From: Porphyromonas asaccharolytica DSM 20707 | Lineage (GTDB): Bacteria; Bacteroidota; Bacteroidia; Bacteroidales; Porphyromonadaceae | Reading direction: 5' to 3' | DNA length: 64,000 nt | Assembly (NCBI RefSeq): GCF_000212375.1 | Contig: NC_015501.1 | Location: 930,001-994,000 of the forward strand | Part shown: in pieces, positions 8,204 through 63,790 of the stretch | Layout: the number at the start of each line of letters is the position of its first letter | Numbering within the stretch: the first letter of the stretch is position 1 | Program-made: the position numbers and the translations under genes | The notes under the pieces: generated by a model | Seen by the model: only the letters and a program-made list of their open reading frames with translations | Database searches by the model: none | Told to the model about the DNA's origin: nothing

Positions 8204-9824
8204 CGCATACTTTATTACAGAGGTGTCGTGGGAGGTCGCCAATAAGGTGGGTGGTATCTACACCGTTCTCTCGTCACGGGCGGGCGAGATGATGCATCGC
8301 CACGGGGCGGAGCAGGTTCTTTTTGTAGGTCCTCATCTACGACCGACGGAGGAGATGGTGGACTTTCGCTCGGAGACCTTTTGCATCACCTTGCCGAGTC
8401 ATATATCGCTACTAGGGGTGGAGCTGCCGATCACCCAGGGCTACTGGCTCACCCCTGGGGGCGAAGCGCAAACGATCCTTGTGGACTACAAGCCGCTCGC
8501 CACAGTCCGTGACCAGCTTTACTACCTCATGTGGCAGCAGTACGGCATCCAGTCCGATCTAGGCTATGGCGACTATGATGACTCCTGTCTCTTTGCCGTT
8601 GCAGCGGCAGCGACACTGCTCGTCGTGACACCGCAGCTTGCGCCGCCTAGTAGTCAGCCGATAGCCATTTATAATGAGTGGATCACTGGCATGGGTCTGC
8701 TCTATCATCACCTGCAGCAGCCCGACCTGCGCTCGCTCTTTATCACCCATGCCACGACCGTGGGGCGCTCTATCTGTAGCAATGGCAAGGATCTCTACCG
8801 CTACTTCACGGGCTACCATGGAGACCAGATGGCGAGCGAACTACATGTCGAGGCAAAGCATGCGCTAGAGAAGGCAGCTGCCCATACCGCGACCATCTTT
8901 GCGACGGTCAGCGAGGTTACCGCTCTAGAGTGTACGCAGCTCTTGGAGCGTACGCCAGTGGTCTTGCCCAATGGCTTCCACGCATTGGCTACAAGCCGAC
9001 TCAAGTCAAAGGCTCGCCAGCGGTTACTAGACGTTGCCAGTGCTCTCTATGGCGAGAGTTTTGACTCTGAGAGCACGACGCTTGTCGCTACCTCAGGACG
9101 CTACGAGTATCGCAATAAAGGGATCGATCTCATTGTCTCCTCTATTGATAGCCTCCTCCAGCAGCAGACGAAGCTGTCGTTTGATCTGATCCTTTACTTC
9201 TTTATTCCTGCTTGGGTTGCTGAGTCAAGAGCAGATATCGCTTACCAGCTCAGCCATACCGACCTAGGGACTAGCAAGTCCCCGCTACAGTATCCTTACT
9301 TAACGCACTGGCTACACAATCTGCGAGAGGATACGCTTGCTAATCGTCTCGGCGAATTCCTCCGAAGAGGAGCGACAGAGCAGCGCATCTATCCGATCTT
9401 TGTGCCCACCTACCTCGATGGTCACGACGGTATCCTAGACCTACCTTATTATGATCTGCTGAGTGCCCTTGACCTGACACTCTTCCCCTCTTACTATGAG
9501 CCGTGGGGCTACACCCCGCTGGAGAGTATCGCCTATGGGGTGCCAACGGTGACGACCGACTTGTCTGGCTTCGGTCAGGCGATTCTAGAGCTCTATGGAG
9601 AGCGTGCTACAGAAAGCCTGCATCATGGTGTGCAGGTTATCCTGCGTCGTGATTATGACGATGCGACTGTGACGAAAGCACTGGCGACGATCCTAGAGCG
9701 CGCTACTGCAGGGCTTCCGAAGGCGTGCTACAAGCAGGCACGGAAGACCGCCTCCCATGCGCTCTGGGCACACTATTATGACTACTACATAGAGGCTTAC
9801 CGTCAGATGATGACGTCTGACTAG
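8196..9824 (+). CDS. Glycogen/starch synthase, GT3-like glycosyltransferase
   Basis: This 542-residue GT-B glycosyltransferase would extend alpha-1,4-glucan from a sugar nucleotide in the cytoplasm. The N-terminus EVSWEVANKVGGIYTVLSS matches the acceptor/donor loop of eukaryote-type (GT3) glycogen synthases rather than bacterial GlgA (GT5), which begins with a different KxGGL context. The C-terminal motif FPSYYEPWGYTPLES, followed by GVPTVTTDLSGFG, is also GT3-like. It overlaps the preceding gene by 8 bp. Its stop codon overlaps that of the convergent gene inside a palindromic CTAG. The polymer is inferred to be glycogen. Confidence 0.85.
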   Translation: MIDAYFITEVSWEVANKVGGIYTVLSSRAGEMMHRHGAEQVLFVGPHLRPTEEMVDFRSETFCITLPSHISLLGVELPITQGYWLTPGGEAQTILVDYKPLATVRDQLYYLMWQQYGIQSDLGYGDYDDSCLFAVAAAATLLVVTPQLAPPSSQPIAIYNEWITGMGLLYHHLQQPDLRSLFITHATTVGRSICSNGKDLYRYFTGYHGDQMASELHVEAKHALEKAAAHTATIFATVSEVTALECTQLLERTPVVLPNGFHALATSRLKSKARQRLLDVASALYGESFDSESTTLVATSGRYEYRNKGIDLIVSSIDSLLQQQTKLSFDLILYFFIPAWVAESRADIAYQLSHTDLGTSKSPLQYPYLTHWLHNLREDTLANRLGEFLRRGATEQRIYPIFVPTYLDGHDGILDLPYYDLLSALDLTLFPSYYEPWGYTPLESIAYGVPTVTTDLSGFGQAILELYGERATESLHHGVQVILRRDYDDATVTKALATILERATAGLPKACYKQARKTASHALWAHYYDYYIEAYRQMMTSD

Positions 9825-10597
9825 TTGATCAGTTGTGTGCGACTATTCTGATCGGCTCTGGTAGGCTCCATCTCGGAGCGTGGTACCATACTCTGGGCGA
9901 GGTAGTCAGGACGATTGGCGTAGATGTATAGGACGCTACCCCCCTTGATCGCATCGATGATGGGGCGCGCCAGTGCACGAGGTACTGCGGGGCAACCGTA
10001 GCTACGCCCGAGACGTCCCTGTCGTATGATCTGATCATTGACATAGGCAGCACCATGTACGACGATAGCCCGTGCCCGCGCCTGATCGTTGTACCCACGC
10101 TCTAGTCCATCGAGACGTAGCGAGTAGCCGTTGTTCCCGCTGTAAGTCTCATTGGTTAGGTAGAAGCCCAGAGAGCTCTGATGTGAGTTAGGTTGGTTGG
10201 AAAAAGAGGTGGCATAGTTCTCCCCGCTACCACGTCCATGCGCACAGAGCGTAGCATAGAGGAGCTTGCCCTGCTCCATATCGATGACAAACATGCGCTC
10301 CTGAGTCGAGGGCTTGGAGAAGTCCACAATGGTGAGTCGTGAGCGATGCTTGTTTGAGATCTGATTGTATCCCCGCACACCTAGGCTAAAGGCCTCAAAC
10401 GAGAGCCTTCCCTCTAGTCCCATCTGCGTATAGAGCTGACGGATCTGCTGTCGCTCTGCTGAGGTGGGTACGACCGTCACACGGTGTCCCGTAGGAGGTA
10501 TGTCCCACAGAGAGACATCAGACCCAGCTACGTAGCTAGGCACGAGTATTACCAAGAGTATCAACCATCTAAATGAAGAGCTGTGAAGCATATGCAT
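9821..10597 (-). CDS. Exported L,D-transpeptidase-like protein (YkuD_2 type)
   Basis: The 258-residue protein has an N-terminal signal peptide (WLILLVILVPSYVAGSD) and a murein L,D-transpeptidase catalytic domain of the YkuD_2 kind. Visible motifs are FVIDMEQGKLLY, CAHGRGSG, a HG pair in AIVVHGAAYV and the nucleophile motif SYGCPAVP. It probably acts on peptidoglycan cross-links or lipoprotein attachment in the periplasm. The start at 10597 lies about 25 bp downstream of the -7 box at 10624-10631. The gene is convergent with the glycogen synthase gene and shares 4 bp with it. Confidence 0.82.
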   Translation of the reverse strand: MHMLHSSSFRWLILLVILVPSYVAGSDVSLWDIPPTGHRVTVVPTSAERQQIRQLYTQMGLEGRLSFEAFSLGVRGYNQISNKHRSRLTIVDFSKPSTQERMFVIDMEQGKLLYATLCAHGRGSGENYATSFSNQPNSHQSSLGFYLTNETYSGNNGYSLRLDGLERGYNDQARARAIVVHGAAYVNDQIIRQGRLGRSYGCPAVPRALARPIIDAIKGGSVLYIYANRPDYLAQSMVPRSEMEPTRADQNSRTQLIN

Positions 10598-10623: not shown

Positions 10624-10683
10624 CAAAGGTACGAAAAAGAGATTAGAAGTTAGAGATTAGAGGTTGGAAGTTAGAGGTTAGAG
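10624..10683 (-). promoter_or_regulatory. Promoter with heptanucleotide array, L,D-transpeptidase gene
   Basis: The minus-strand TACCTTTG (10624-10631) is a -7 box. Ten bases further upstream begins an array of six 7-bp units of the (A/G)TTAGA(A/G) type (10642-10683, written on the plus strand). The -33 position would fall inside the array. The same arrangement, including the shared AAAGGTACGAAAAAGAGATT stretch, is found upstream of tig. Confidence 0.65.
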
Positions 10684-10741
10684 ATTTTTCTAGAGGCACT
10701 AGTACTCCTAGTGTCACTAGTGCCTCTAGCCAATCGCTTTC

Positions 10742-10937
10742 CTACGTGGAAATTCTCAAATCGCCACGTGGAAAAAGAAAATTCTCCACGGAGGAAACAA
10801 AAAATCTCCACGTGGGCAAGAAATAAAACTTCGGAGGAATCAAATGAAACTTCGGAGGAAATGTTTCTCGCCCACGTGGAGATTTTTTGTTTACTCCGTG
10901 GAGAATCTGAAATATCCACGTGGAGATTCTAATTTCC
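10742..10937. repeat. CCACGTGG ruler repeat, copy A
   Basis: Boxes related to CCACGTGG start at 10742, 10764, 10786 and 10808 on the left and 10872, 10894 and 10916 on the right, each exactly 22 bp apart. The centre holds two copies of a 21-bp unit containing AAACTTCGGAGGAATC. Left and right arms are inverted copies of each other: a 40-bp stretch starting at 10785 matches its counterpart at 10864-10904 with only one or two mismatches. No terminal repeats of an insertion sequence are visible here. It lies between the divergent L,D-transpeptidase and BspA-like genes. Confidence 0.9.
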
Positions 10938-11057: not shown

Positions 11058-11183
11058 CCTCCACCTATTCGCTAAGTTTGGGGTTAGATGCTACCCAGTA
11101 CTTAGTCCTGACGGCTCCGTATATCTGGAGTCTCTATGCACGAAAGTGCACTACTACTTAATATTTCAATAACAGATTACTTT

Positions 11184-14100
11184 ATGAATCGAATAACAAA
11201 CTTACTACTGCTACTCGTCCTCTCAGCGACGGCTCTTGTCGCGCAGTCAGTGTCGGGTAACGTATTGACCTCTTGGGGAGATGCTACTGGAGCTATCAGG
11301 ATCCCTGACGGGGTGACTGAGATTGCTGCAAACTGCTTTTACACGCCTGGAGAGGATGATCCCAACGGGTGGGGCTCTACAGACCCTATCAGCAATACCA
11401 ATATCACTAGCGTAGATCTCAACGGGGTGACAAAGATCGGTGACAACGCCTTCAAGGGTTGCACGGGCATCAAAACCATCAAGGCTCCTAAGCTAGAGAG
11501 CGTGGGTAGCCACAGCTTCGAGGGGTGTACGGCTCTGGAGGCACTCGAACTGCCGATGATTAAGACGATCGGGGAGAAGGCCTTTGAGAATGCAAACGCA
11601 CTGACCTCACTCTCACTAGGCAAGTCGCTCGAGTCTATCGTGGGCAACCCCTTCCAAAACAGTACCAGCCTCACCTCGCTAACGCTTGAGGAGGGATGCG
11701 CTAACTACCTCGCAACCGAGGGCGCACTCATCTCTCGTGCTGATGGTGTGCTACGACTGCTGGCTGGTGGTGTCCAGAAGGTGACCCTTGGTGAGGAGTG
11801 CAAGGCTATCGGTGATAACGCTATCTTTGGCTGTGGAGCTTTGGAGCGTCTAGAGCTACCTTACGCCAAGGAGATAGGTACAGGTGCTTTTGTCAACTGC
11901 ACTAAGCTCACCGAGCTTTATCTGCCACGCTTGGAGCGTATGAAGAGGGACTGGTTATCTTTCAGCGGTGTAGGCTCACTGCGTATCGTAGACTTGCACT
12001 TGAGTAATTCCATCTCTGGTCTGGAGACACTTTGGCCAGACAATAATACGACAACTGTTTATGTAGCTAGTGAGGCGATCAAGACGGAGCTAGCACAGAA
12101 ACTGAAGAAGTGCCAGATCATCGTCGGTGCTCCCGCAGGAACACAGCAACGCTATAAAGTAACTTACAGTTTTACCGGAGATGGTCAGCTGGAGGCTTGG
12201 ACGACTGGAGCTCAGAATGTCAATAATGGTGATATGCTTCTAGAGCACTCCTCTGTTAGCTTTAAGGCAAGCCCTCGGGCTGAGCAGCAGATCAAGGAGT
12301 GGCGTGTCAATGGCTCTGTCGTGAAGGTCGAGGGTGATCCAAAGTTCCCTCAAATCTATGAGGTCAAAGATCTAACTAGTGATCTGACGGTGACGGTAAC
12401 CTTTGAGGCTCGTCCAGAGGGTGCTGACGTTTACTTCCGTAGTCGTGACCTTCAGATGGGTACCCTAACCTGCGCACTAGATGACGGCACAGAGGTGAAG
12501 TCTGGCGATCGTGTGCCTACAGGTACGATGCTGAATTTTACTGCTACTCCTAAGGAGGGCTATCGCATCGGAGACTGGTTCGAGCAGGTCGAGATAGGAG
12601 GCAGCGAGTTTAAGCCGATAGAGGGACAGAATGGTCAGTCCACCTATCGCTGCGAAGTGCCCGATGCACGTGAGATAGAGGTCGATTTTGACCGTATCGA
12701 GGGACACTTTAGAGTGAAGTTTGCCTCTTTCAATGAGAAGACCGGCACGCTCACTGCTACGGCTGATGGTGTCGAGATTAAAACAGGTCAGGCAGTCAAG
12801 GCTGGTAGCAAGCTCGTCTTTACGGCACACCCTGCTGAGGGCTATGCTGTCGATGAGTGGCAGCTCAATGGTGAGACGCTTCCTAACTACCGTGAACTAA
12901 CCTACACGATCGAGAGCCTCAAGGAGGATGTCGAGGTGAATATGGTCTGCAGCCCAGCTTCGAGTACAGATAAGAAGCCTGAGATCGTCGATGGTGTACT
13001 CTATAAGTGGATGGCTGAGGGCGATGCAGTCCTACCCGATGAGGTGACTTACATTGCTCCGCTAGCTTTCGAGGGTGCCAACCAGATGACTTCGCTGACG
13101 CTCAATAATAAGGTAAAGGGCATCGGTGATCGTGCATTCCTCTTCTGCACGGCTATGACGAAGTTTGTCGTGCCTGAGGCTAATGAGTCGTTCTCAACGA
13201 TAGAGGGTGTCCTCTACAGCAAGGATCAGACGAGACTCATCGCTTACCCCGCAGGTCTCAAGGCTGATAGCTATACTCTAGGGGCTAAGGTTACTTCGAT
13301 ACAGCCTGGAGCATTCCTAACGCCGATACACTTGAATGCTGTCGAGGTTGCCACGGGCAATACGGCGCTTAAGAGTGTCAATGGTATCCTCTACACGGCA
13401 GATGGCTCGAAGCTGCTCTACCTACCTATAGGCAGTCAAACGATCGAACTGGAAGGTAAGCTGGCTCTCTCAGAAGGACTCAAAGAGATATCGAGCCTCG
13501 CCCTAGCGTACAATCCTAGGCTCAAGGAGCTGATACTCCCGGTATCTCTAGAGCGCATCGATGCGATGGCTCTCGCTTACAATGCGGCTATGAAGTCCTT
13601 CGCATGGGCTGAGGGTGTCACACCTCAGCTTGTCTCGGTCGGAGACTCTGCATTTTACTATGATCGTTCGCTAGAGACGGTTCCCTATATGCCTAGTTGT
13701 ACTTCATTTGGCAAGGCTGCCTTTGGACTAGCTTCTGCCCTTAAGGAGGTACATATCCCAGCAGGTTGCTCAATAGAGGCTAATACGTTCACTGGCTGTC
13801 AGATTATCAGTGCTGTTTACGCTTATAGTGTAGAGCCTCCTGTCATCAACGAGGCAACCTTTGGGGATATTTATAGTCCCAAGGAGGCTACGCTCTATGT
13901 ACAGAAGGGCGCTAAGGAGGCTTACAGCAAGGCTAAGGGCTGGCGTATTTTTGGTAATATAGTTGAGGAGGATAACCTCGCTGTGGCTGCCATCGATGAG
14001 CTTGCCATACAACTCTACCCGAACCCGACACAGGAGCTACTCAACGTGGCAGGCGCAGTCGCTAACAGTGACATCCTGCTCTACGACATGACGGGTACGC

Positions 14101-14219
14101 TCGTTGGTACGGCTCGTACTGATGCTGTGGGTAGTGCTGTGGTAGACCTCGCTAGCTATCCCGCTGGCACCTACGTGGTACGCGTATCAGGTGCTGACCG
14201 TCTCGTGGTCAAGCAGTAA
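11184..14219 (+). CDS. BspA-like leucine-rich repeat surface protein with T9SS sorting domain
   Basis: This is a large secreted protein (1011 residues from ATG 11184). A signal peptide (NLLLLLVLSATALVAQ) is followed by BspA-type leucine-rich repeats of the form IGDNAF.GCT.I..I..P, then about three beta-rich modules resembling bacterial repeat domains (GTLTATADGVEIKTGQ, GYRIGDW, GYAVDEWQLNGE), then more BspA repeats. It ends with a type A T9SS C-terminal domain of about 75 residues (IQLYPNPTQELLNV, YPAGTYVVRVSG). It is probably exported by the Por system and anchored to the cell surface, where BspA relatives bind host proteins. The binding partner is unknown. Confidence 0.92.
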   Translation: MNRITNLLLLLVLSATALVAQSVSGNVLTSWGDATGAIRIPDGVTEIAANCFYTPGEDDPNGWGSTDPISNTNITSVDLNGVTKIGDNAFKGCTGIKTIKAPKLESVGSHSFEGCTALEALELPMIKTIGEKAFENANALTSLSLGKSLESIVGNPFQNSTSLTSLTLEEGCANYLATEGALISRADGVLRLLAGGVQKVTLGEECKAIGDNAIFGCGALERLELPYAKEIGTGAFVNCTKLTELYLPRLERMKRDWLSFSGVGSLRIVDLHLSNSISGLETLWPDNNTTTVYVASEAIKTELAQKLKKCQIIVGAPAGTQQRYKVTYSFTGDGQLEAWTTGAQNVNNGDMLLEHSSVSFKASPRAEQQIKEWRVNGSVVKVEGDPKFPQIYEVKDLTSDLTVTVTFEARPEGADVYFRSRDLQMGTLTCALDDGTEVKSGDRVPTGTMLNFTATPKEGYRIGDWFEQVEIGGSEFKPIEGQNGQSTYRCEVPDAREIEVDFDRIEGHFRVKFASFNEKTGTLTATADGVEIKTGQAVKAGSKLVFTAHPAEGYAVDEWQLNGETLPNYRELTYTIESLKEDVEVNMVCSPASSTDKKPEIVDGVLYKWMAEGDAVLPDEVTYIAPLAFEGANQMTSLTLNNKVKGIGDRAFLFCTAMTKFVVPEANESFSTIEGVLYSKDQTRLIAYPAGLKADSYTLGAKVTSIQPGAFLTPIHLNAVEVATGNTALKSVNGILYTADGSKLLYLPIGSQTIELEGKLALSEGLKEISSLALAYNPRLKELILPVSLERIDAMALAYNAAMKSFAWAEGVTPQLVSVGDSAFYYDRSLETVPYMPSCTSFGKAAFGLASALKEVHIPAGCSIEANTFTGCQIISAVYAYSVEPPVINEATFGDIYSPKEATLYVQKGAKEAYSKAKGWRIFGNIVEEDNLAVAAIDELAIQLYPNPTQELLNVAGAVANSDILLYDMTGTLVGTARTDAVGSAVVDLASYPAGTYVVRVSGADRLVVKQ

Positions 14220-27487: not shown

Positions 27488-27578
27488 GCTAAGGTACGAA
27501 AATTAGAGGTTAGAGGCTAGAAGTTAGAGGTTAGAGGTTAGAGATTAGAAGTTAGAGATTAGAGGTTAGAGGTTAGAG
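27488..27578 (-). promoter_or_regulatory. folA promoter abutted by an 11-unit heptanucleotide array
   Basis: TACCTTAG on the minus strand (27488-27495) is a one-mismatch -7 box. Six bases upstream begins an array of eleven 7-bp units, mostly GTTAGAG with ATTAGAG, ATTAGAA and GCTAGAA variants (27502-27578, plus-strand spelling). This is the longest of three such arrays in the window. Confidence 0.65.
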
Positions 27579-31395: not shown

Positions 31396-31645
31396 GCAGA
31401 CCTAGTGGATCTCCACGTGGAAAATCGCGAATATCCACGTGGAAAATAAAAATTCTCCACGTGGGGAAGAAATAAAACTTCGGAGGAATCAAATGAAACT
31501 TCGGAGGAATCAAATGAAACTTCGGAGGAATTTTTTCTTTCCTACGTGGGAAATGTCCTCTTCCTGAAAAAAGTACACAGTTGGGGAGGTGTTACTGAGA
31601 TGGTACACGGGTTACTTTTGTTAGTCCTGTGAGTGTACTCATTTG

Positions 31646-32701
31646 TTAGTTTTGCTCCTGCTGGGGTACACGACTTGTGGTCGTTTTTACTGCGGAGGTA
31701 CACAAAGATAGGTCTTTGTGTGGAGTTAAGCGGCATGAGCTCGGAGATTTGAGGCTCAGAGCTTTGGGAGAATTGTTCTTAGATGTCTGTTTCTTAGAGG
31801 GTTGGGTGGTTAGAGGGTTGGGGTAATTTGGTATGAGCATCTGCATCGGAGTCTTCTTGTTGATGGCTCGATGAGGTCGCGCTGTGTTATAGAGAGCAAT
31901 CGTTTGAGAGAGGATCTCTCGAACTTGATCTATGGGCTTATCCTCGAAGTTGTAAAGCCAGTCGTTCTTGATGATCCCGTTAAGTCGCTCAGCCATAGCG
32001 TTGTGAAGGGGGTTTCCGGTCTGGGTGACGCTGGTTACGATGCCTAGGCTGGCCTCGTAGTCGGTCATCTGCTTGGAGACATATTGACAGCCTCGGTCGC
32101 TATGGAAGATGAGCCCTTTGAGGTCAAAGCCATGCTTCTGATAGAAGTCAACGGTCTGTCTTAGTGCGTTGTAGGGACCCTCTGTGGAGAGCGTGGGCTG
32201 CAGGTCAAAGCCGGTGATGATGCGGCTATAAGCGTCCATCGTCAGGGAGAGATATGCGAATCCCCCTAAACATTTGACGTAGGTTATGTCTGAGACGGTG
32301 AGCCGGCAATGGTCGGTGGCTATGTACTTAGGGGTGGTGTTCAGGTGGTCTTGGAAGCCGTGATTGACCACTCCCTTGGTCGTCTGGGGTGGACGCTTGC
32401 GCTTGCGACTTCTTAGTAGCATATCGTTGGCTCCTAAGACTTTGTACAGCCAGTCTCGACCTACTTGAAAGGTCCCTTTGAAGTATTCGTTGGCACACTG
32501 CTGGATGGTGTCTACGCCTGCTTTGGGGAGCTGACCGCGCACATACTGGCAATAGTGTAGGACGGAAGCTACTTTGACATCTTCGTCTTGCTCGGTGAAG
32601 GTGTGCTTGTAGTAGCCTTTGCGGCTGACTTCTAACAGCTGACAAAGGTAGGTTATGGAGAGCTTTTGATCTCTCTCTTTGGCGGACTCAAGCTGTCTCA
32701 C
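31646..32701 (-). CDS. IS3-family transposase OrfB (DDE integrase)
   Basis: The 351-residue catalytic part has an HTH_21 region (SRKGYYKHTF), then the rve core with DITYVKCLGGFAYLSLTMD, IFHSDRGCQY and NAMAERLNGIIKN (the three DDE acids). It begins at a GTG that overlaps the OrfA stop (GTGA). OrfAB is expected from -1 slippage at A-AAA-AAG in the run at 32717-32725. Confidence 0.93.
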   Translation of the reverse strand: MRQLESAKERDQKLSITYLCQLLEVSRKGYYKHTFTEQDEDVKVASVLHYCQYVRGQLPKAGVDTIQQCANEYFKGTFQVGRDWLYKVLGANDMLLRSRKRKRPPQTTKGVVNHGFQDHLNTTPKYIATDHCRLTVSDITYVKCLGGFAYLSLTMDAYSRIITGFDLQPTLSTEGPYNALRQTVDFYQKHGFDLKGLIFHSDRGCQYVSKQMTDYEASLGIVTSVTQTGNPLHNAMAERLNGIIKNDWLYNFEDKPIDQVREILSQTIALYNTARPHRAINKKTPMQMLIPNYPNPLTTQPSKKQTSKNNSPKALSLKSPSSCRLTPHKDLSLCTSAVKTTTSRVPQQEQN

Positions 32702-33102
32702 GGCTGCAAATCGGTCTTTTTTTTTAGATCAATGTGGTAGCGATTCAAGACCACTTCGAGTAGTGTCTTGTTGACTAATGCCTTGCTCTCAGCCTGGAAG
32801 AGGGCTGCTTTGAGACGAGCGTTTTCACGCTTGAGTTCAGCGTACTCTGGATCTACGTCTTTGTTCTTGTTTGTCTTGCTCATAGTGCTACTGCTGCTTT
32901 GGTTGGGTAACTCTACACCAAAGGTACGCAACCAATTTCGAATGGTGCGTGTGGTAATGCCGTAGCGCTGGCTGGTGGTGGCAATGCTGTCACCGGTGGC
33001 TAGGAGGTCGTCAATGACTCTCCACTTGAAATCTAGGGGATATCCCTTTCGTCCTCGGGTACTTTTTTCTTGTTTCATAGTTGTTGGGGTTGGCTTCCCC
33101 AA
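32698..33102 (-). CDS. IS3-family transposase OrfA (HTH)
   Basis: The 134-residue protein has a helix-turn-helix (DFKWRVIDDLLATGDSIATTSQRYGITTRTIRNWL; positions about 25-60) and a C-terminal leucine-zipper-like coiled coil (YAELKRENARLKAALFQAE). It binds the IS ends. Its last codons cover a run of nine A residues, a canonical A-AAA-AAG slippery site for fusion to OrfB. Confidence 0.92.
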   Translation of the reverse strand: MGKPTPTTMKQEKSTRGRKGYPLDFKWRVIDDLLATGDSIATTSQRYGITTRTIRNWLRTFGVELPNQSSSSTMSKTNKNKDVDPEYAELKRENARLKAALFQAESKALVNKTLLEVVLNRYHIDLKKKTDLQP

Positions 33103-33223
33103 CTGTGTACTATTTCAGGAGAGGACAAAATAAAAAATAGCCACGTGGAAATTTGGAATTTTCCACGTGGCTATTGTGTATGACTCGGACGCTGTCCGAT
33201 TACGATGACGACAGTCGCAGTGA

Positions 33224-33541
33224 CTAGTCGAGGAGCTTCTGAGCCTCCTCCTGTAGTTTAGCCTTGCTCTGTGCACCGACGAGCTTGCTCACCATCTCAC
33301 CGCCCTTGAAGAAGAGGATCGTTGGGATGTTGCGGATGCCGTACTGACTGGGCAGGTCGCTGTTTTCGTCGACGTTGACCTTGCCAACGATGATCTTACC
33401 GTTGAACTCCTCAGCGATCTCGTCAATCATCGGGCCAACCATCTGACAGGGACCACACCAAGTAGCCCAAAAGTCTAGGATCATTGGTTTGCCCTCAGCC
33501 ATCAGACCGGCTATATTCGCATCTGTTATTTCCATTGCCAT
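33224..33541 (-). CDS. trxA: Thioredoxin
   Basis: The 105-residue cytoplasmic thioredoxin has the WCGPC active site in [17 protein letters not shown] and the cis-proline strand [12 protein letters not shown]. It has no signal peptide. It follows dnaE by 57 bp on the same strand and may share its transcript. Confidence 0.96.
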
Positions 33542-39207: not shown

Positions 39208-39267
39208 CAAAGGTACGAAAAAGAGATTAGAAGTTGGGGATTAGATATTAGAGGTTAGATATTAGAG
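39208..39267 (-). promoter_or_regulatory. tig promoter with heptanucleotide array
   Basis: TACCTTTG on the minus strand (39208-39215) is a -7 box. After 10 bp comes an array of six 7-bp units (39226-39267; ATTAGAA, GTTGGGG, ATTAGAT, ATTAGAG, GTTAGAT, ATTAGAG). The box, spacer and first unit are identical to those at 10624-10648. Confidence 0.65.
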
Positions 39268-39298
39268 ATCTAGTGGCTCTAGTAGTTCTAGCCAATCG

Positions 39299-43290: not shown

Positions 43291-43468
43291 ACGATAATTT
43301 GATAGTGTCGCATCATCAAGGTAAAGGTATCAGACGAATTGGGCTAATTCCTATTTTGAGGTGCTGGGGGAGAAGCCACACGCAAAAAACTAACTGAAGT
43401 GAATTGATTAACTTGCACCCCCAAATGAATGAGGAGAGCTTTTCGCCCTCCCCCTTACCACCTCAAAT

Positions 43469-43861
43469 ATGACTAAAGAACTAGATTGGATTGAGCTATT
43501 CGCTCCACAAGAAATTCTCCGAGACTTTAACTTCGAGAAGTTGGTTGAAGAAAACGGCATTTACCGCATCTTTATGGTAGAGAAAGATGACGCTGCCCAT
43601 ATCCCCGCAGAGTTGAAAAAAGAGGTCAACGGAGATCTTTCAAACATAGTCCTAGACGGCTATACGAACTACATTGAGTTGCAGACCTTCCCAGCTATGG
43701 GCAAGGAGGTCTTCCTCTACCTCAAGCGTCGTCGCTGGAAGGTAAAACAGGACCAGCGACAAGAGGAAAAGAGCTACTCCAACAGCTACTCATACAATGA
43801 AAAAGGCATGAAAGCGACCAAGGCTTTCGGCAATTTTTTAAAAGAAATTGATTGGGTCTAA
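43469..43861 (+). CDS. ISAon1-type transposase N-terminal region
   Basis: The 130-residue protein (LDWIELFAPQEILRDFNFEKL, RRRWKVKQDQRQEEKSYSNSYSYNEKG) matches the short first frame of ISAon1-type ISL3 elements. It probably forms the zinc- or DNA-binding N-terminal part of the transposase. It overlaps the next frame by 14 bp in the +1 frame. No standard -1 slippery site is evident. Confidence 0.85.
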   Translation: MTKELDWIELFAPQEILRDFNFEKLVEENGIYRIFMVEKDDAAHIPAELKKEVNGDLSNIVLDGYTNYIELQTFPAMGKEVFLYLKRRRWKVKQDQRQEEKSYSNSYSYNEKGMKATKAFGNFLKEIDWV

Positions 43862-44951
43862 GCCCACCAGTATCGGGCAAGTCGCCTACTGTATGGGGAT
43901 GAGCTCGAAGAAACTCTTTCGCTGGTACAAAGATGTCTTGAGCGGATACAAAAGCCCAGGGCACCAACGCCATTTGCAGAAGACTGGAGCCTCACGATCT
44001 CTAGGGTCTTCTGCTAAAAGCCCTGTAAGTTCTGATCTAAAGATCCCCATTCTCAATGAGAAGAATATGGGATCCATCATCTGCATAGACGAAAAGAACA
44101 TCAACGGGGATTGCTACACCATCGTGTCGAACCCAGAGACGAATAAAATCGTCCTGATGGTCAACACGCTCCGAGCCTCCCAGATCGTCTATCTAATGAG
44201 ATCAAACATCTCCCAAGAAGCACTTTTCGCAGTCTCTTGCGTAACCCGTGATATGGCTCCAAACTACGACTGGGTGGCTCGTGAACTCTTCCCCAATGCC
44301 TATCAAGTTGCGGACAAATTTCACGTTGTCAAAAACATCATTGATCAAGTCCAGTCAGTAAGAATACGCTACCGCCAAGAGCTTCTACGCAAGCAACGGG
44401 AGCTGGAGGAGGCGAGTCGCAAACGGTCTAAACTGCAGCCCGCCCCCAAAATCCAGCAAGAGCTCAAAGAGTTCAAAAAAGAGCTGTCCAATGGAGATAC
44501 CCAGCTACAGCTCCTCCAGCGCAGCAAAGGGTTACTACACAAGCTTCACAACGAGCAGACAGCCAGTCAAAAGCTACGCGCTCGGCTACTCTTTAGACTT
44601 TTCCCAGACATCAAAGAAGCGTACAAATTCTCCGTAGCGCTACGGAAGTGGTACCAACGTCCTATGCGAAATGGTACCTCCATAACACCCTCCCGACACC
44701 TGTTGGAGTGTAAGAAAAAAGCACTTCTAGAGATCATCACTAATCACCTCAGTAGTCCATGTGAAGAGGTCAAGAACATCGCTCACTTTATGGTCAAGCA
44801 CATAGGAGAGATCTGCAACTACTTCCTCGGCTATAAGACCAACGCTTCAGCAGAAGCACTCAACCAGAACCTCCAACGCTTTATCGCCATCAACTATGGA
44901 ACCCGAAATAGTGACTTCTTCCTCTACCGCATCGCCGTTCACTTCAGTTAG
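43848..44951 (+). CDS. ISL3-family transposase catalytic part (DDE)
   Basis: The 367-residue protein starts at a TTG that overlaps the first frame. It contains an HTH (SIGQVAYCMGMSSKKLFRWY) and the ISL3 DDE domain with ICIDEKNINGDCYTI, the second acid in AVSCVTRDMAPNYD, VADKFHVVKNIID and a late SAEALNQNLQRFIAINYG. It would act on the GGCTAATTCC ends, including those of the 280-bp element at 50715-50994. Confidence 0.9.
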   Translation: MIGSKPTSIGQVAYCMGMSSKKLFRWYKDVLSGYKSPGHQRHLQKTGASRSLGSSAKSPVSSDLKIPILNEKNMGSIICIDEKNINGDCYTIVSNPETNKIVLMVNTLRASQIVYLMRSNISQEALFAVSCVTRDMAPNYDWVARELFPNAYQVADKFHVVKNIIDQVQSVRIRYRQELLRKQRELEEASRKRSKLQPAPKIQQELKEFKKELSNGDTQLQLLQRSKGLLHKLHNEQTASQKLRARLLFRLFPDIKEAYKFSVALRKWYQRPMRNGTSITPSRHLLECKKKALLEIITNHLSSPCEEVKNIAHFMVKHIGEICNYFLGYKTNASAEALNQNLQRFIAINYGTRNSDFFLYRIAVHFS

Positions 44952-45018
44952 TTTTTTGCGTGTGGCTTTCTCCCCAGCACCTCAAAATAGGAATTAGCCA
45001 CGAATTGCCCTCTTCTAA

Positions 45019-50656: not shown

Positions 50657-50714
50657 CAAAATTCTTGGTAATCAACAACTACTTTCAAGGCGCGTACATT
50701 TCACCGTACATTCC

Positions 50715-50994
50715 GGCTAATTTTTATTTTGAGGTGCTGGAGAGAAGGTAGATCCCCACGTGGGAATTCTCAAATCTCCACGTGGAAATTCTCAAATCTC
50801 CACGTGAAGAATAAAAAATCTCCACGTGGAGATGAAATGAAACTTCGGAGGAATCGTTTCGTCCCTACGTGGAGAATAAAAAATATCCACGTGGAAAATC
50901 GAAAATCTCCACGTGGATATTCTGTTTTATAGTCTCAGTTGATTAGAACACGTCATCCTAAAGTTTTCTCAGCACCTCAAAATAGGAATTAGCC
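50715..50994. mobile_element. 280-bp MITE carrying ruler repeat copy C, with ISL3-type ends
   Basis: The ends GGCTAATTTTTATTTTGAGGTGCTGGAGAGAA and, inverted on the right, GGCTAATTCCTATTTTGAGGTGCTGAGAAAA match the 43342-44999 element over about 30 bp. TACATTCC flanks both sides (50707-50714 and 50995-51002), an 8-bp duplication. Inside, CCACGTGG boxes start at 50756, 50778, 50800 and 50822, then, after one central 21-bp unit, at 50865, 50887 and 50909. No protein is encoded, so movement would need a transposase in trans. Confidence 0.92.
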
Positions 50995-51021
50995 TACATT
51001 CCACCCGCTAATGCCATTTTC

Positions 51022-61592: not shown

Positions 61593-61787
61593 CCACGAGG
61601 AGTTTCCCAATCCCTCCCTAGGGATTTCCAAATTCCTAGGGAGGAACAGAAAAATCCCCACGTAGGGACGAAATAAAACTTCGGAGGAATGAAATGAAAC
61701 TTCGGAGAAATCATTTCTCGCCTACGTGGCGAATTTTTATTTTCCAGCGAGCTATTGGAAAATTTCCACGTGGAAGTTTCGAAGCAA
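61593..61787. repeat. CCACGTGG ruler repeat, copy D (degenerate)
   Basis: Boxes near 61593, 61615, 61637 and 61658 on the left have decayed (CCACGAGG, TCCCTAGG, TAGGGAGG, CCACGTAG). On the right CTACGTGG (61722), CCAGCGAG (61744) and CCACGTGG (61766) keep the 22-bp spacing. Two central AAACTTCGGAG units remain. One single-base slip breaks the left arm. No IS ends are visible. Confidence 0.8.
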
Positions 61788-61884: not shown

Positions 61885-61916
61885 AGAGCCTGCCACGAGA
61901 GGTCGTGACAGGCTCT
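61885..61916. terminator. Terminator-like hairpin at the group II intron insertion site
   Basis: AGAGCCTGCCACGA pairs with TCGTGACAGGCTCT around a 4-base loop. On the minus strand it is followed by TCTTTTAT, so it was probably the dcp terminator. On the plus strand the intron starts three bases after the stem. Confidence 0.75.
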
Positions 61917-61919
61917 TGC

Positions 61920-63790
61920 GTGTATGACGGGCATGTCATACATCTGTGGTGAAAGTCCACACGGGGCGTAGTTGCCAACGAACCCCATAGCGACTTGCAA
62001 GTTTCAAGGGGTGACCCTTGGGAGAGAAGAAGCAATAGCGAATTCGTGGCCTGACGAACAGAAACCTAATACCAAGGCGTATCAAGCGGACAAGCTGGCA
62101 CGCGACAGTGAAGCTCCAAAAGGCAACCGTAACCTTGATGCGTAAATTAGGCAGGTAAACGATGAAAGATGTATGGCTTATCCCGTGAGGCCTCGGCAGT
62201 CCTCAAGGATAGTAACAACGAATGTCGAGGAGTCAGCAGAGGTCGAAGTAGCCGTTCTCGCGCAGAACAAGGCGAAGGACCGAATAATTCGTAACGTTAA
62301 TCAAGAATGTATGTTCCGATGTTTTTGCTGACGAGTGGCAACGGTCAAAACGTCAATGCGATCGACCACATAGAGCTAAGCACGCGAGCATCGGAAGCGG
62401 AAATTAAGAAAGACGGAAGATGAAACTAATCGAACAGATACTCGCCAAGAATAATGTACGCGAGGCACTCAATCGTGTTGTGAGCAACAAGGGCGCCTCG
62501 GGTATAGACGGTATGAAAGTCGAGGAGCTCCGCGACTATATGAACGCCAATTGGACGAGCATCAAGCAGTCGATCCTAGAGCGTAGGTACAAGCCAGCCC
62601 CCGTACGGAGGGTTGAGATACCTAAGCCCAACGGAGGCGTACGCAAGCTCGGTATCCCGACCGTTGTCGACCGAACCCTTCAACAATCGATTGTCCAAGT
62701 CCTGACTCCCATCTTCGAGGCAGAGTTTCAAGAGAACAGCTACGGCTTCCGCCCCGGCAGGAGCTGTGAGCAAGCCGTTCAGAAGCTTTTGGAATACCTC
62801 AACGAGGGAGCGGAGTGGATAGTTGACATAGACTTGGAGAAGTTCTTCGACAATGTTCCACAAGACAAACTGATGAGTTATGTGGGTCGTGTGATCCATG
62901 ACCCAGACACCGAAAGTCTGATACGCAAGTATCTGAAGTCGGGCGTAATGGAGAATGGTCTTTACGAAGCCACAGAACTCGGCACGCCCCAAGGTGGCAA
63001 TTTGTCCCCCTTGTTGAGCAATGTGATGCTCAACGAGCTAGATAAGGAAATGGTCAGACGGGGGCTGCGCTATGTTCGATACGCAGACGACTGCGTCATA
63101 GCAGTAAGAAGCGAAGCAAGTGCCAAACGAGTGATGCACTCTGTCACCCAATGGATAGAGCGTGTCCTCGGGCTTAAGGTCAATGCCACCAAAACGCACG
63201 TCTGCCGACCGAGCAAACTTAAGTACCTCGGTTTTGGATTTTACAAATCCCCTCAGACCAAGCAGTGGACGGCAAGACCTCACGAGGACTCCGTAGCGAA
63301 GTTTGTCAGGAAGCTGAAGAAACTATGCAAACGCTCGTGGAGCATCTCCATGACTGCCCGTATCACAATGCTGAACAGAGTGATACGTGGATGGATAAAC
63401 TACTTTGCCATTGGAGCTATGAAAGGCAAGATGGTAGGGATAGACGAACATCTGCGCACGATGCTACGTAAGGTGATATGGAAGCAATGGAAAACACCTC
63501 GAAAGCGAGCCTGGGGGCTACGCAAGCTTGGTATCTGCAACGACTTAGCCAAGCTCACCTCGTGCAGCGGAGACCGCTACGAATGGGTGGTGAGACGTAC
63601 ATGCGTGGTACGAGCAATATCGAAAGATGTGCTAGCCCGCAGAGGCCTCGTAAGCTGTTTGGACTACTATGCGATTAGACACTCTTTGAAAACGAATTAA
63701 ACCGCCGTATGCCGAACGGCACGTACGGTGGTGTGAGAGGAAAGGAAACGAAAGTAGGTCAGAAAACTTTCGTTTCCCGACCTACTCGAT
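61920..63790 (+). mobile_element. Group II intron with maturase gene
   Basis: The 5' end GTGTATGACGGGCATGTCATACATCTGTGG, then TGAAAGTCCACACGGGG fits bacterial group II introns. Domain V (63702-63731) reads CCGCCGTATGCCGAA then CGGCACGTACGGTGG. Domain VI starts GTGTGAGAGG and closes CCTACTCGAT with a bulged A at 63784 and a long stem (AAACGAAAGT/ACTTTCGTTT). The exact 3' end is placed at 63790 by this structure. Insertion beside a terminator hairpin and a short maturase suggest class C, though this was not modelled. Confidence 0.87.
62420..63700 (+). CDS. ltrA: Group II intron reverse transcriptase/maturase
   Basis: The 426-residue protein has RT motifs NKGASGIDGM, RRVEIPKPNGGVRKLGIPTV, NSYGFRPGRSCEQAV, WIVDIDLEKFFDNV, GTPQGGNLSPLLSNVMLNELD, the catalytic YADD in VRYADDCVIAV, then the maturase X domain (WINYFAIG). 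It ends without an HNH endonuclease domain, as in short group IIC-type proteins. It promotes splicing and retrohoming of its own intron. Confidence 0.94.
   Translation: MKLIEQILAKNNVREALNRVVSNKGASGIDGMKVEELRDYMNANWTSIKQSILERRYKPAPVRRVEIPKPNGGVRKLGIPTVVDRTLQQSIVQVLTPIFEAEFQENSYGFRPGRSCEQAVQKLLEYLNEGAEWIVDIDLEKFFDNVPQDKLMSYVGRVIHDPDTESLIRKYLKSGVMENGLYEATELGTPQGGNLSPLLSNVMLNELDKEMVRRGLRYVRYADDCVIAVRSEASAKRVMHSVTQWIERVLGLKVNATKTHVCRPSKLKYLGFGFYKSPQTKQWTARPHEDSVAKFVRKLKKLCKRSWSISMTARITMLNRVIRGWINYFAIGAMKGKMVGIDEHLRTMLRKVIWKQWKTPRKRAWGLRKLGICNDLAKLTSCSGDRYEWVVRRTCVVRAISKDVLARRGLVSCLDYYAIRHSLKTN

Follow-up and report, generated by a model that had tools for sequence, protein, structure and literature searches.

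The window analysed here, a 64,000-nucleotide stretch of the Porphyromonas asaccharolytica DSM 20707 chromosome (positions 930001-994000 of a 2.19-Mb genome, contig of 2,186,370 bases), contains four copies of a repeat in which core units are flanked on both sides by arms of palindromic boxes (Table 1). An earlier note made from the sequence had placed copies at 10742, 31413, 50756 and 61593, and all four are present there. It had also proposed that the distance from the last left box to the first right box equals 22 + 21n bp; measured distances were 64, 85, 43 and 64 bp in that order of copies, corresponding to n = 2, 3, 1 and 2. Copy 1 lacks a recognised transposon chassis and sits between the divergent genes 9821-10597 (minus strand) and 11136-14219 (plus strand). 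The right arm of copy 2 is split by an insertion sequence (IS) of the IS3 family, and the right boxes at 33141 and 33163 had not been joined to it. Copy 4 is followed directly by a group II intron (61925-63790, with a reverse transcriptase/maturase gene at 62420-63700); a terminator-like inverted repeat at approximately 61885-61920 separates the two.

Table 1. Coordinates of the four array copies and associated mobile elements, as positions in the window.
Feature	Position	Strand	Details
Copy 1	10742..10937	+	left boxes 10742, 10764, 10786, 10808; core 10826, 10847
Copy 1, right boxes	10872, 10894, 10916	+	three boxes
Copy 2, left part	31413..31554	+	left boxes 31413, 31435, 31457; first right box 31542
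Copy 2, core units	31475, 31496, 31517	+	three units
IS3-family IS inside right arm of copy 2	31555..33126	-	ends GTCCTCTTCCTGAAA; orfB 31646-32701, orfA 32698-33102
Copy 2, remainder of right arm	33127..33178	+	boxes 33141, 33163
ISL3-family (ISAon1-type) IS, autonomous	43342..44999	+	TIRs same as copy 3
Left 8-bp target-site duplication of copy-3 MITE	50707..50714		TACATTCC
Copy 3, complete 280-bp MITE	50715..50994	+	TIRs GGCTAATTTTTATTTTGAGGTGCTGG / TCAGCACCTCAAAATAGGAATTAGCC
Copy 3, boxes	left 50756, 50778, 50800, 50822; right 50865, 50887, 50909		core unit 50840
Right 8-bp target-site duplication of copy-3 MITE	50995..51002		TACATTCC
Copy 4	61593..61775	+	degenerate arms, boxes 61593, 61658, 61722, 61766; core 61676, 61697

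To describe the family across the genome, we searched with the core query AAACTTCGGAGGAA, allowing up to two mismatches, in the sequence surrounding box and core matches. This gave 121 core clusters, with two units in 99, one in 18 and three in 4; the cluster at genome position 683884 appears to be a chance match within a gene, which leaves approximately 120 arrays. The sequence covered comprised the stretches around elements and one contiguous 384-kb sample, in which a profile search added a few further partial arrays. The typical copy consists of three boxes, two core units and three more boxes, with a pitch of 22 bp between boxes and 21 bp between core units, although cores range from one to three units. 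Relative to the core, boxes fall in register at -18, -40 and -62 on the left and at +11, +33 and +55 on the right. The earlier note had set its 22-bp ruler against random spacing in other copies, and no such randomness was found, within-arm spacing being 22 bp in 345 of the 372 adjacent box pairs genome-wide. The distance across the core is 64 bp in 88 elements, with 43, 85 and 108 bp as the other main values and 86 bp where the innermost box is degenerate. Exact CCACGTGG boxes number 15 in the window versus 0.56 expected, and the pattern CCACGTGG-N14-CCACGTGG occurs 198 times in the genome versus 0 for a reversed-pattern control. The ruler recurs about 120 times; some of the boxes in the window are one- or two-base variants (in copy 1, CTACGTGG at 10742, CCACGGAG at 10786 and CTCCGTGG at 10894), and copy 4 retains a single exact box. 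Elements lie in both orientations (65 plus, 56 minus) with no obvious pattern, and we rejected an orientation bias by replication strand.

The 121 clusters were sorted by their surroundings into 19 copies in an A chassis, 27 in a B/C chassis and 75 bare copies, a grouping set by similarity extents and flank searches under simple rules, so that a small number of copies may be misassigned. The ends of B/C copies are 26-bp inverted repeats identical or nearly identical to those of a 1658-bp ISL3-family IS, and pairs of GGCTAATTNNTATTTTGAGGTGCTGG ends enclose either that IS (six copies) or array-bearing segments of 279-343 bp. The second ORF of the IS, which has six copies in the genome, matches ISL3 transposases (PF01610), and the copy in the window is flanked by an exact 8-bp duplication, ACGAATTG (43334-43341 and 45000-45007). 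Among 11 array MITEs with both ends found, the 8-bp duplication is exact in three, and 6-7 of 8 bases agree in several others. The 1658-bp ISL3-type IS is the likely source of the transposase. An IS1595 transposase was rejected as the source of the GGCTAATT ends, since PF12762 has no match in the genome and the source is of ISL3 type. Copies of the A class have CAGGGCTGACGCATTAT ends (consensus CAGGG[CG]TGAC[AG]CATTAT), measure 455-606 bp when complete and show target duplications of about 10 bp in five of six complete copies, four perfect (one of them 11 bp) and one matching at 9 of 10 bases. A search for A-class ends returned array-sized pairs and solo ends, and no clear IS-sized pair except one interrupted by the IS3-family IS. 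In A copies such as L091 and L112, the outer CAGGGCTGACGCATTAT ends enclose shorter segments of approximately 80-110 bp, bounded by the same inverted ends, on either side of the array, which suggests a nested or composite MITE.

Since ISL3-type and CAGGGCTGACGCATTAT-type ends carry the same array, the array is cargo of two unrelated vehicles and spreads at least in part in this way. For the approximately 75 bare copies we found neither a recognised chassis nor a common flank sequence, and a C-type left flank was detectable in only 6 of 74, so the idea that all bare copies are eroded C-type MITEs was rejected. The array is also better conserved than its chassis. On the right side, identity within B copies is 0.97 for the arm versus 0.89 for the flank, and within A copies 0.94 versus 0.82. 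Core identity within chassis groups reaches 0.97-0.99, a value inflated by the core-based search, whereas the arms were not selected on in that search.

Arrays are in turn the target of another mobile element. The IS3-family IS that splits copy 2 has nine copies in the genome, five of which lie in or beside recognised elements, an association above chance both against the whole genome (p = 6e-8) and against intergenic DNA (p = 2e-4); three more adjoin degenerate palindromic arrays. The four right-arm insertions lie a few bases past a box at a site reading GTGG[AG]GA[AT]T or similar, and junctions of copies inside right arms show 5-bp duplications, e.g., AGAAT. The degenerate arrays beside this IS (L125 1581-1735, L126 3470-3602 and L124 1583-1729) are coreless, have CCTAGG and CCAAGG boxes and may be earlier generations of such arrays.

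Copies were found to avoid each other. Inter-element distances average 18 kb with a coefficient of variation (CV) of 0.60, compared to 0.99 +/- 0.09 for random placement (0 of 20000 placements as even), and gaps below 5 kb number 4 versus 28.6 expected. In the 384-kb sample, which holds 18 elements, the CV was 0.33, compared to approximately 0.82 for random placement in the real intergenic gaps (0 of 4000). A control repeat of the same genome, the TTAGAG arrays, is clustered, with a CV of 1.22 for the best 100 of 115 matches. The avoidance crosses chassis boundaries: the mean distance from an A copy to its closest non-A neighbor is 16.3 kb versus 8.2 kb after rotation of positions (p = 0.001), B/C copies lie 13.7 versus 8.6 kb from the nearest copy of another group (p = 0.001), and the union of groups is more even than all independent rotations (0 of 5000). 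Depletion of neighboring copies extends to approximately 8 kb, between different chassis as well. Pairs closer than 10 kb comprise 11 direct and 10 opposed; deletion between direct repeats was therefore rejected as the cause of the evenness.

The same avoidance is seen in related species. Gaps below 8 kb number 1 versus 10.1 expected in the genome G025 (p = 0.0002; exact cores in the first 1.6 Mb) and 2 versus 8.1 expected in P. uenonis (p = 0.004). The exact core occurs in 5 of the 26 Porphyromonas genomes examined, with that of the window (G000) among the five, and in a scan of approximately 85,000 species, from which close relatives may be missing, it was confined to Porphyromonas (P. uenonis DSM 23387 and one MAG). 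Boxes in G025 are the same CCACGTGG at 22 bp, while those of P. uenonis are mainly CCTAGG with a 23-bp pitch. Box sequence and pitch are species-specific, and the core is common to all three. In P. uenonis (L169 2994-3060, L170 2955-3010), and not in the window genome, core units facing in opposite directions also lie close together as an inverted pair. Positions turn over between species: 6 of 20 sampled G025 elements share an intergenic region with an element of the window genome, and of the eight window-genome sites located in G025 by a concatenated flank query, one still has a cored element. Cleanly empty orthologous sites, a further sign of mobility that bears on the bare copies, were found for E783426 in both G025 and P. 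uenonis and for E843364 in G025, and both of these insertions lie just past the intrinsic terminator of the upstream gene. The G025 site of E406930 holds a shrunken remnant with two boxes. At that of E1622666 (L152 3200-3225 compared with L092) a single box-like palindrome, CGACATCCAGGTAGGGAGTCGA, is left, as would result from an array reduced to one box, or from one still to expand. The family is clade-specific, with positions that turn over between species.

We classified the elements according to their flanking genes, using ORF-based, uncurated gene calls. Nearly all clusters (119 of 121) lie outside gene calls. Relative to the element, the flanking pairs are divergent in 41 cases, both leftward in 37, both rightward in 24 and convergent in 14, and the excess of divergent over convergent pairs is significant both against a 1:1 expectation (p = 4e-4) and when the expected ratio is set by the intergenic lengths of the 384-kb sample (p = 0.02). 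The right-hand gene points away from the element in 64 of 110 elements. A role as a bidirectional terminator between convergent genes was rejected, as no class is rarer than the convergent pairs (14 of 116). The window also contains another intergenic repeat family, arrays of 7-bp units (TTAGAGG/TTAGAGA) at 27503-27578, 10638-10686 and 39222-39269; among 63 TTAGAG arrays located, at least 19 are no more than 300 bp away from an element core, compared to 2.1 expected.

The inverted arms had led the earlier note to expect one very long hairpin in a transcript. This was not borne out: pairing between left and right boxes was no better within copies than between copies (z approximately 0 for L1-R3, L2-R2 and L3-R1). 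What does covary is a local hairpin at the right end, formed by boxes R2 and R3 (z = 8.8 for all copies and 7.3 for bare copies). When 35 distinct bare copies were aligned without gaps, both sides were changed at 7 of the 15 R2-R3 pairs, and double-changed cells numbered 32 versus 12.2 in shuffles (0 of 500). Kinship among sequences can inflate this comparison beyond what shuffles capture, but pairing dropped from 91% to 36-47% in slid controls. Read on the minus strand, the R2-R3 hairpin is followed by a T-tract, TTTTTATTCT. At the right end of copy 2, a 16-bp hairpin followed by TTTTTATTTT (minus strand, 33175-33136) has a terminator-like form and lies 46 bp after the stop codon of a thioredoxin gene (33224-33541, minus strand); in copy 3, a GC-containing hairpin on the minus strand (50923-50880) again precedes a T-tract. 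Hairpins of the R2-R3 type were two of the strongest terminator-like sites in a 20-kb scan. The stem of bare copies is near-perfect in 15 of 29 with the right-hand gene reading in, compared to 7 of 36 with that gene reading away (p = 0.009), whereas a rank test of stem against gene orientation across all copies was not significant (p = 0.12). The transcript end that the earlier note had considered is partly backed, in one direction only, by the minus-strand R2-R3 hairpin and its T-tract. On these sequence grounds, the right-end box pair is supported as a putative factor-independent terminator acting one way, on transcripts that arrive from the right.

We compared the arrays with known repeat systems, and found no earlier description of the family in the open-access literature searched. 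The earlier note had mentioned the BrickBuilt elements of Porphyromonas gingivalis, of which there are 19 copies, with head-to-tail direct 23-nt repeats and an IS5-like TIR (PMC4596501). Likenesses include the genus, a MITE with a short-period minisatellite, an always intergenic location and predicted stem-loops (PMC4596501). However, the arrays described here have inverted palindromic arms, a distinct core, ISL3-type or other ends and approximately 120 copies, and membership failed on both repeat and ends: the BrickBuilt repeat AGAYCATARTATCCTCTCRTRTG was absent from the window (up to three mismatches) and from all 121 clusters (up to five), and the TIR GAGACCTTTGCA from within 260 bp of all 121 (up to one). 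BIMEs, REP/PU sequences and REPINs of enterobacteria and pseudomonads are likewise mosaic intergenic palindromes in inverted pairs with more than 100 copies (PMC2817692, PMC3116915); REPINs also show compensatory hairpin changes (PMC3116915), as R2-R3 does here, and REPs serve as IS targets (PMC1525189). The arrays differ in having no GTAG-type head or RAYT link that we could find, in being borne on DDE-type MITEs, in favoring divergent gene pairs and in their over-dispersed spacing. The IS3-family IS, which selects a fixed position next to the palindromes and has 8 of its 9 copies in or next to intact or degenerate arrays, resembles IS1397, ISKpn1 and other REP-targeting IS (PMC1525189), although host, IS and palindrome are different and what it targets is an array carried by MITEs, not a REP. 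As in ISL3-family MITEs, the 26-bp TIRs are common with a full-length ISL3/ISAon1-type IS of the same genome and 8-bp duplications are present; the difference is the palindrome array inside, which is also found in a second, unrelated chassis and without a recognised one.

We tentatively favor, at slightly below an even chance, the explanation that these are MITE-borne, clade-specific palindrome arrays partly domesticated as one-way terminators and intergenic boundary modules. In such a scheme, the boxes and core units, which follow one another at roughly two turns of the helix, would form a multivalent site for a putative host DNA-binding protein; copies would be kept only at intervals of approximately 18 kb, with arrays acting on or interfering with one another at chromosome scale; and the element may insulate neighboring transcription units or serve as an anchor between them. 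Exclusion between chassis tips the balance from selfish cargo towards a retained site, as transposase-specific immunity cannot easily explain it. Against this explanation stand the excess in divergent pairs (41 versus 14 convergent), where a terminator is least needed, the 64 of 110 right-hand genes that point away, and the fact that the stem-orientation test is one comparison of modest strength. The turnover of positions between close species argues against an essential site at any single locus. Alternatively, the arrays may be a chromosome-scale ruler, i.e., a mobile-derived protein-binding site selected at intervals of approximately 15-20 kb whichever transposon delivered it, which would mark a topological or nucleoid boundary from one transcription unit to the next; we regard this as rather unlikely. 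The even spacing across chassis hints that a mobile repeat has turned into a chromosome-organising or insulating element.

A purely selfish origin, in which a passenger minisatellite rides in two MITEs and is conserved through recent spread and gene conversion, keeps a sizeable minority share of the probability. The hallmarks of MITEs are clear and turnover is high, and evenness could result if close copies were purged or target sites limited. The occupied share of suitable intergenic regions is indeed sizeable, and lowers the expected CV to approximately 0.82; the CV observed in the 384-kb sample nevertheless lies far below this, the depletion to about 8 kb holds between different chassis too, and the near balance of direct and opposed close pairs rules direct-repeat deletion out as the cause of the spacing. 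Selfish cargo also does not predict arms more conserved than the chassis flanks of the same copies, or covariation of a single hairpin when neighboring boxes are equally spaced throughout. Target immunity, whereby a transposition-linked protein bound to the array would block insertion nearby and give spacing with no benefit to the host, seems improbable. Immunity of this kind occurs in Mu and Tn7, and such elements carry repeated transposase-binding sites, which the several 22-bp sites per arm recall; an exclusion spanning several kilobases would also fit. However, the two chassis that exclude each other have different ends and duplication lengths, and hence different transposases, and the array lies inside the chassis rather than at its ends. 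We know of no immunity in ISL3 elements.

Two further explanations are weaker still. It is quite improbable that the whole array is transcribed and folded as one long structured non-coding RNA: the predicted free energy of -77.1 kcal/mol (z -7.9) is expected of any inverted array, the predicted fold consists of a series of local hairpins and a core stem, long-range pairing does not covary, and none of the arrays in the window overlaps an Rfam match. A REPIN- or BIME-type element moved by a Y1 transposase (RAYT) is very improbable indeed, despite palindromes in inverted pairs, compensatory hairpin changes and use as an IS target. The genome has two Y1 genes, neither flanked by cores or complete arrays, and the one Y1 protein scanned scores as IS200/IS605 rather than RAYT, on which grounds a RAYT-driven REPIN was rejected. 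TIRs with 8- or 10-bp duplications indicate DDE-type transposition for two of the classes, which also argues against a RAYT, and REPINs are described in the literature as randomly distributed.

Dispersed bacterial palindromes are usually taken as randomly scattered parasites. A family whose copies keep apart over approximately 8 kb, whichever of the unrelated vehicles carried them and in three species whose sites largely differ, would be a rare signature, at the level of sequence, of a length scale in the bacterial chromosome. Transport as MITE cargo is a route that could seed such sites repeatedly, and about 120 natural sites are at hand for testing the spacing of supercoil domains or nucleoid anchors.
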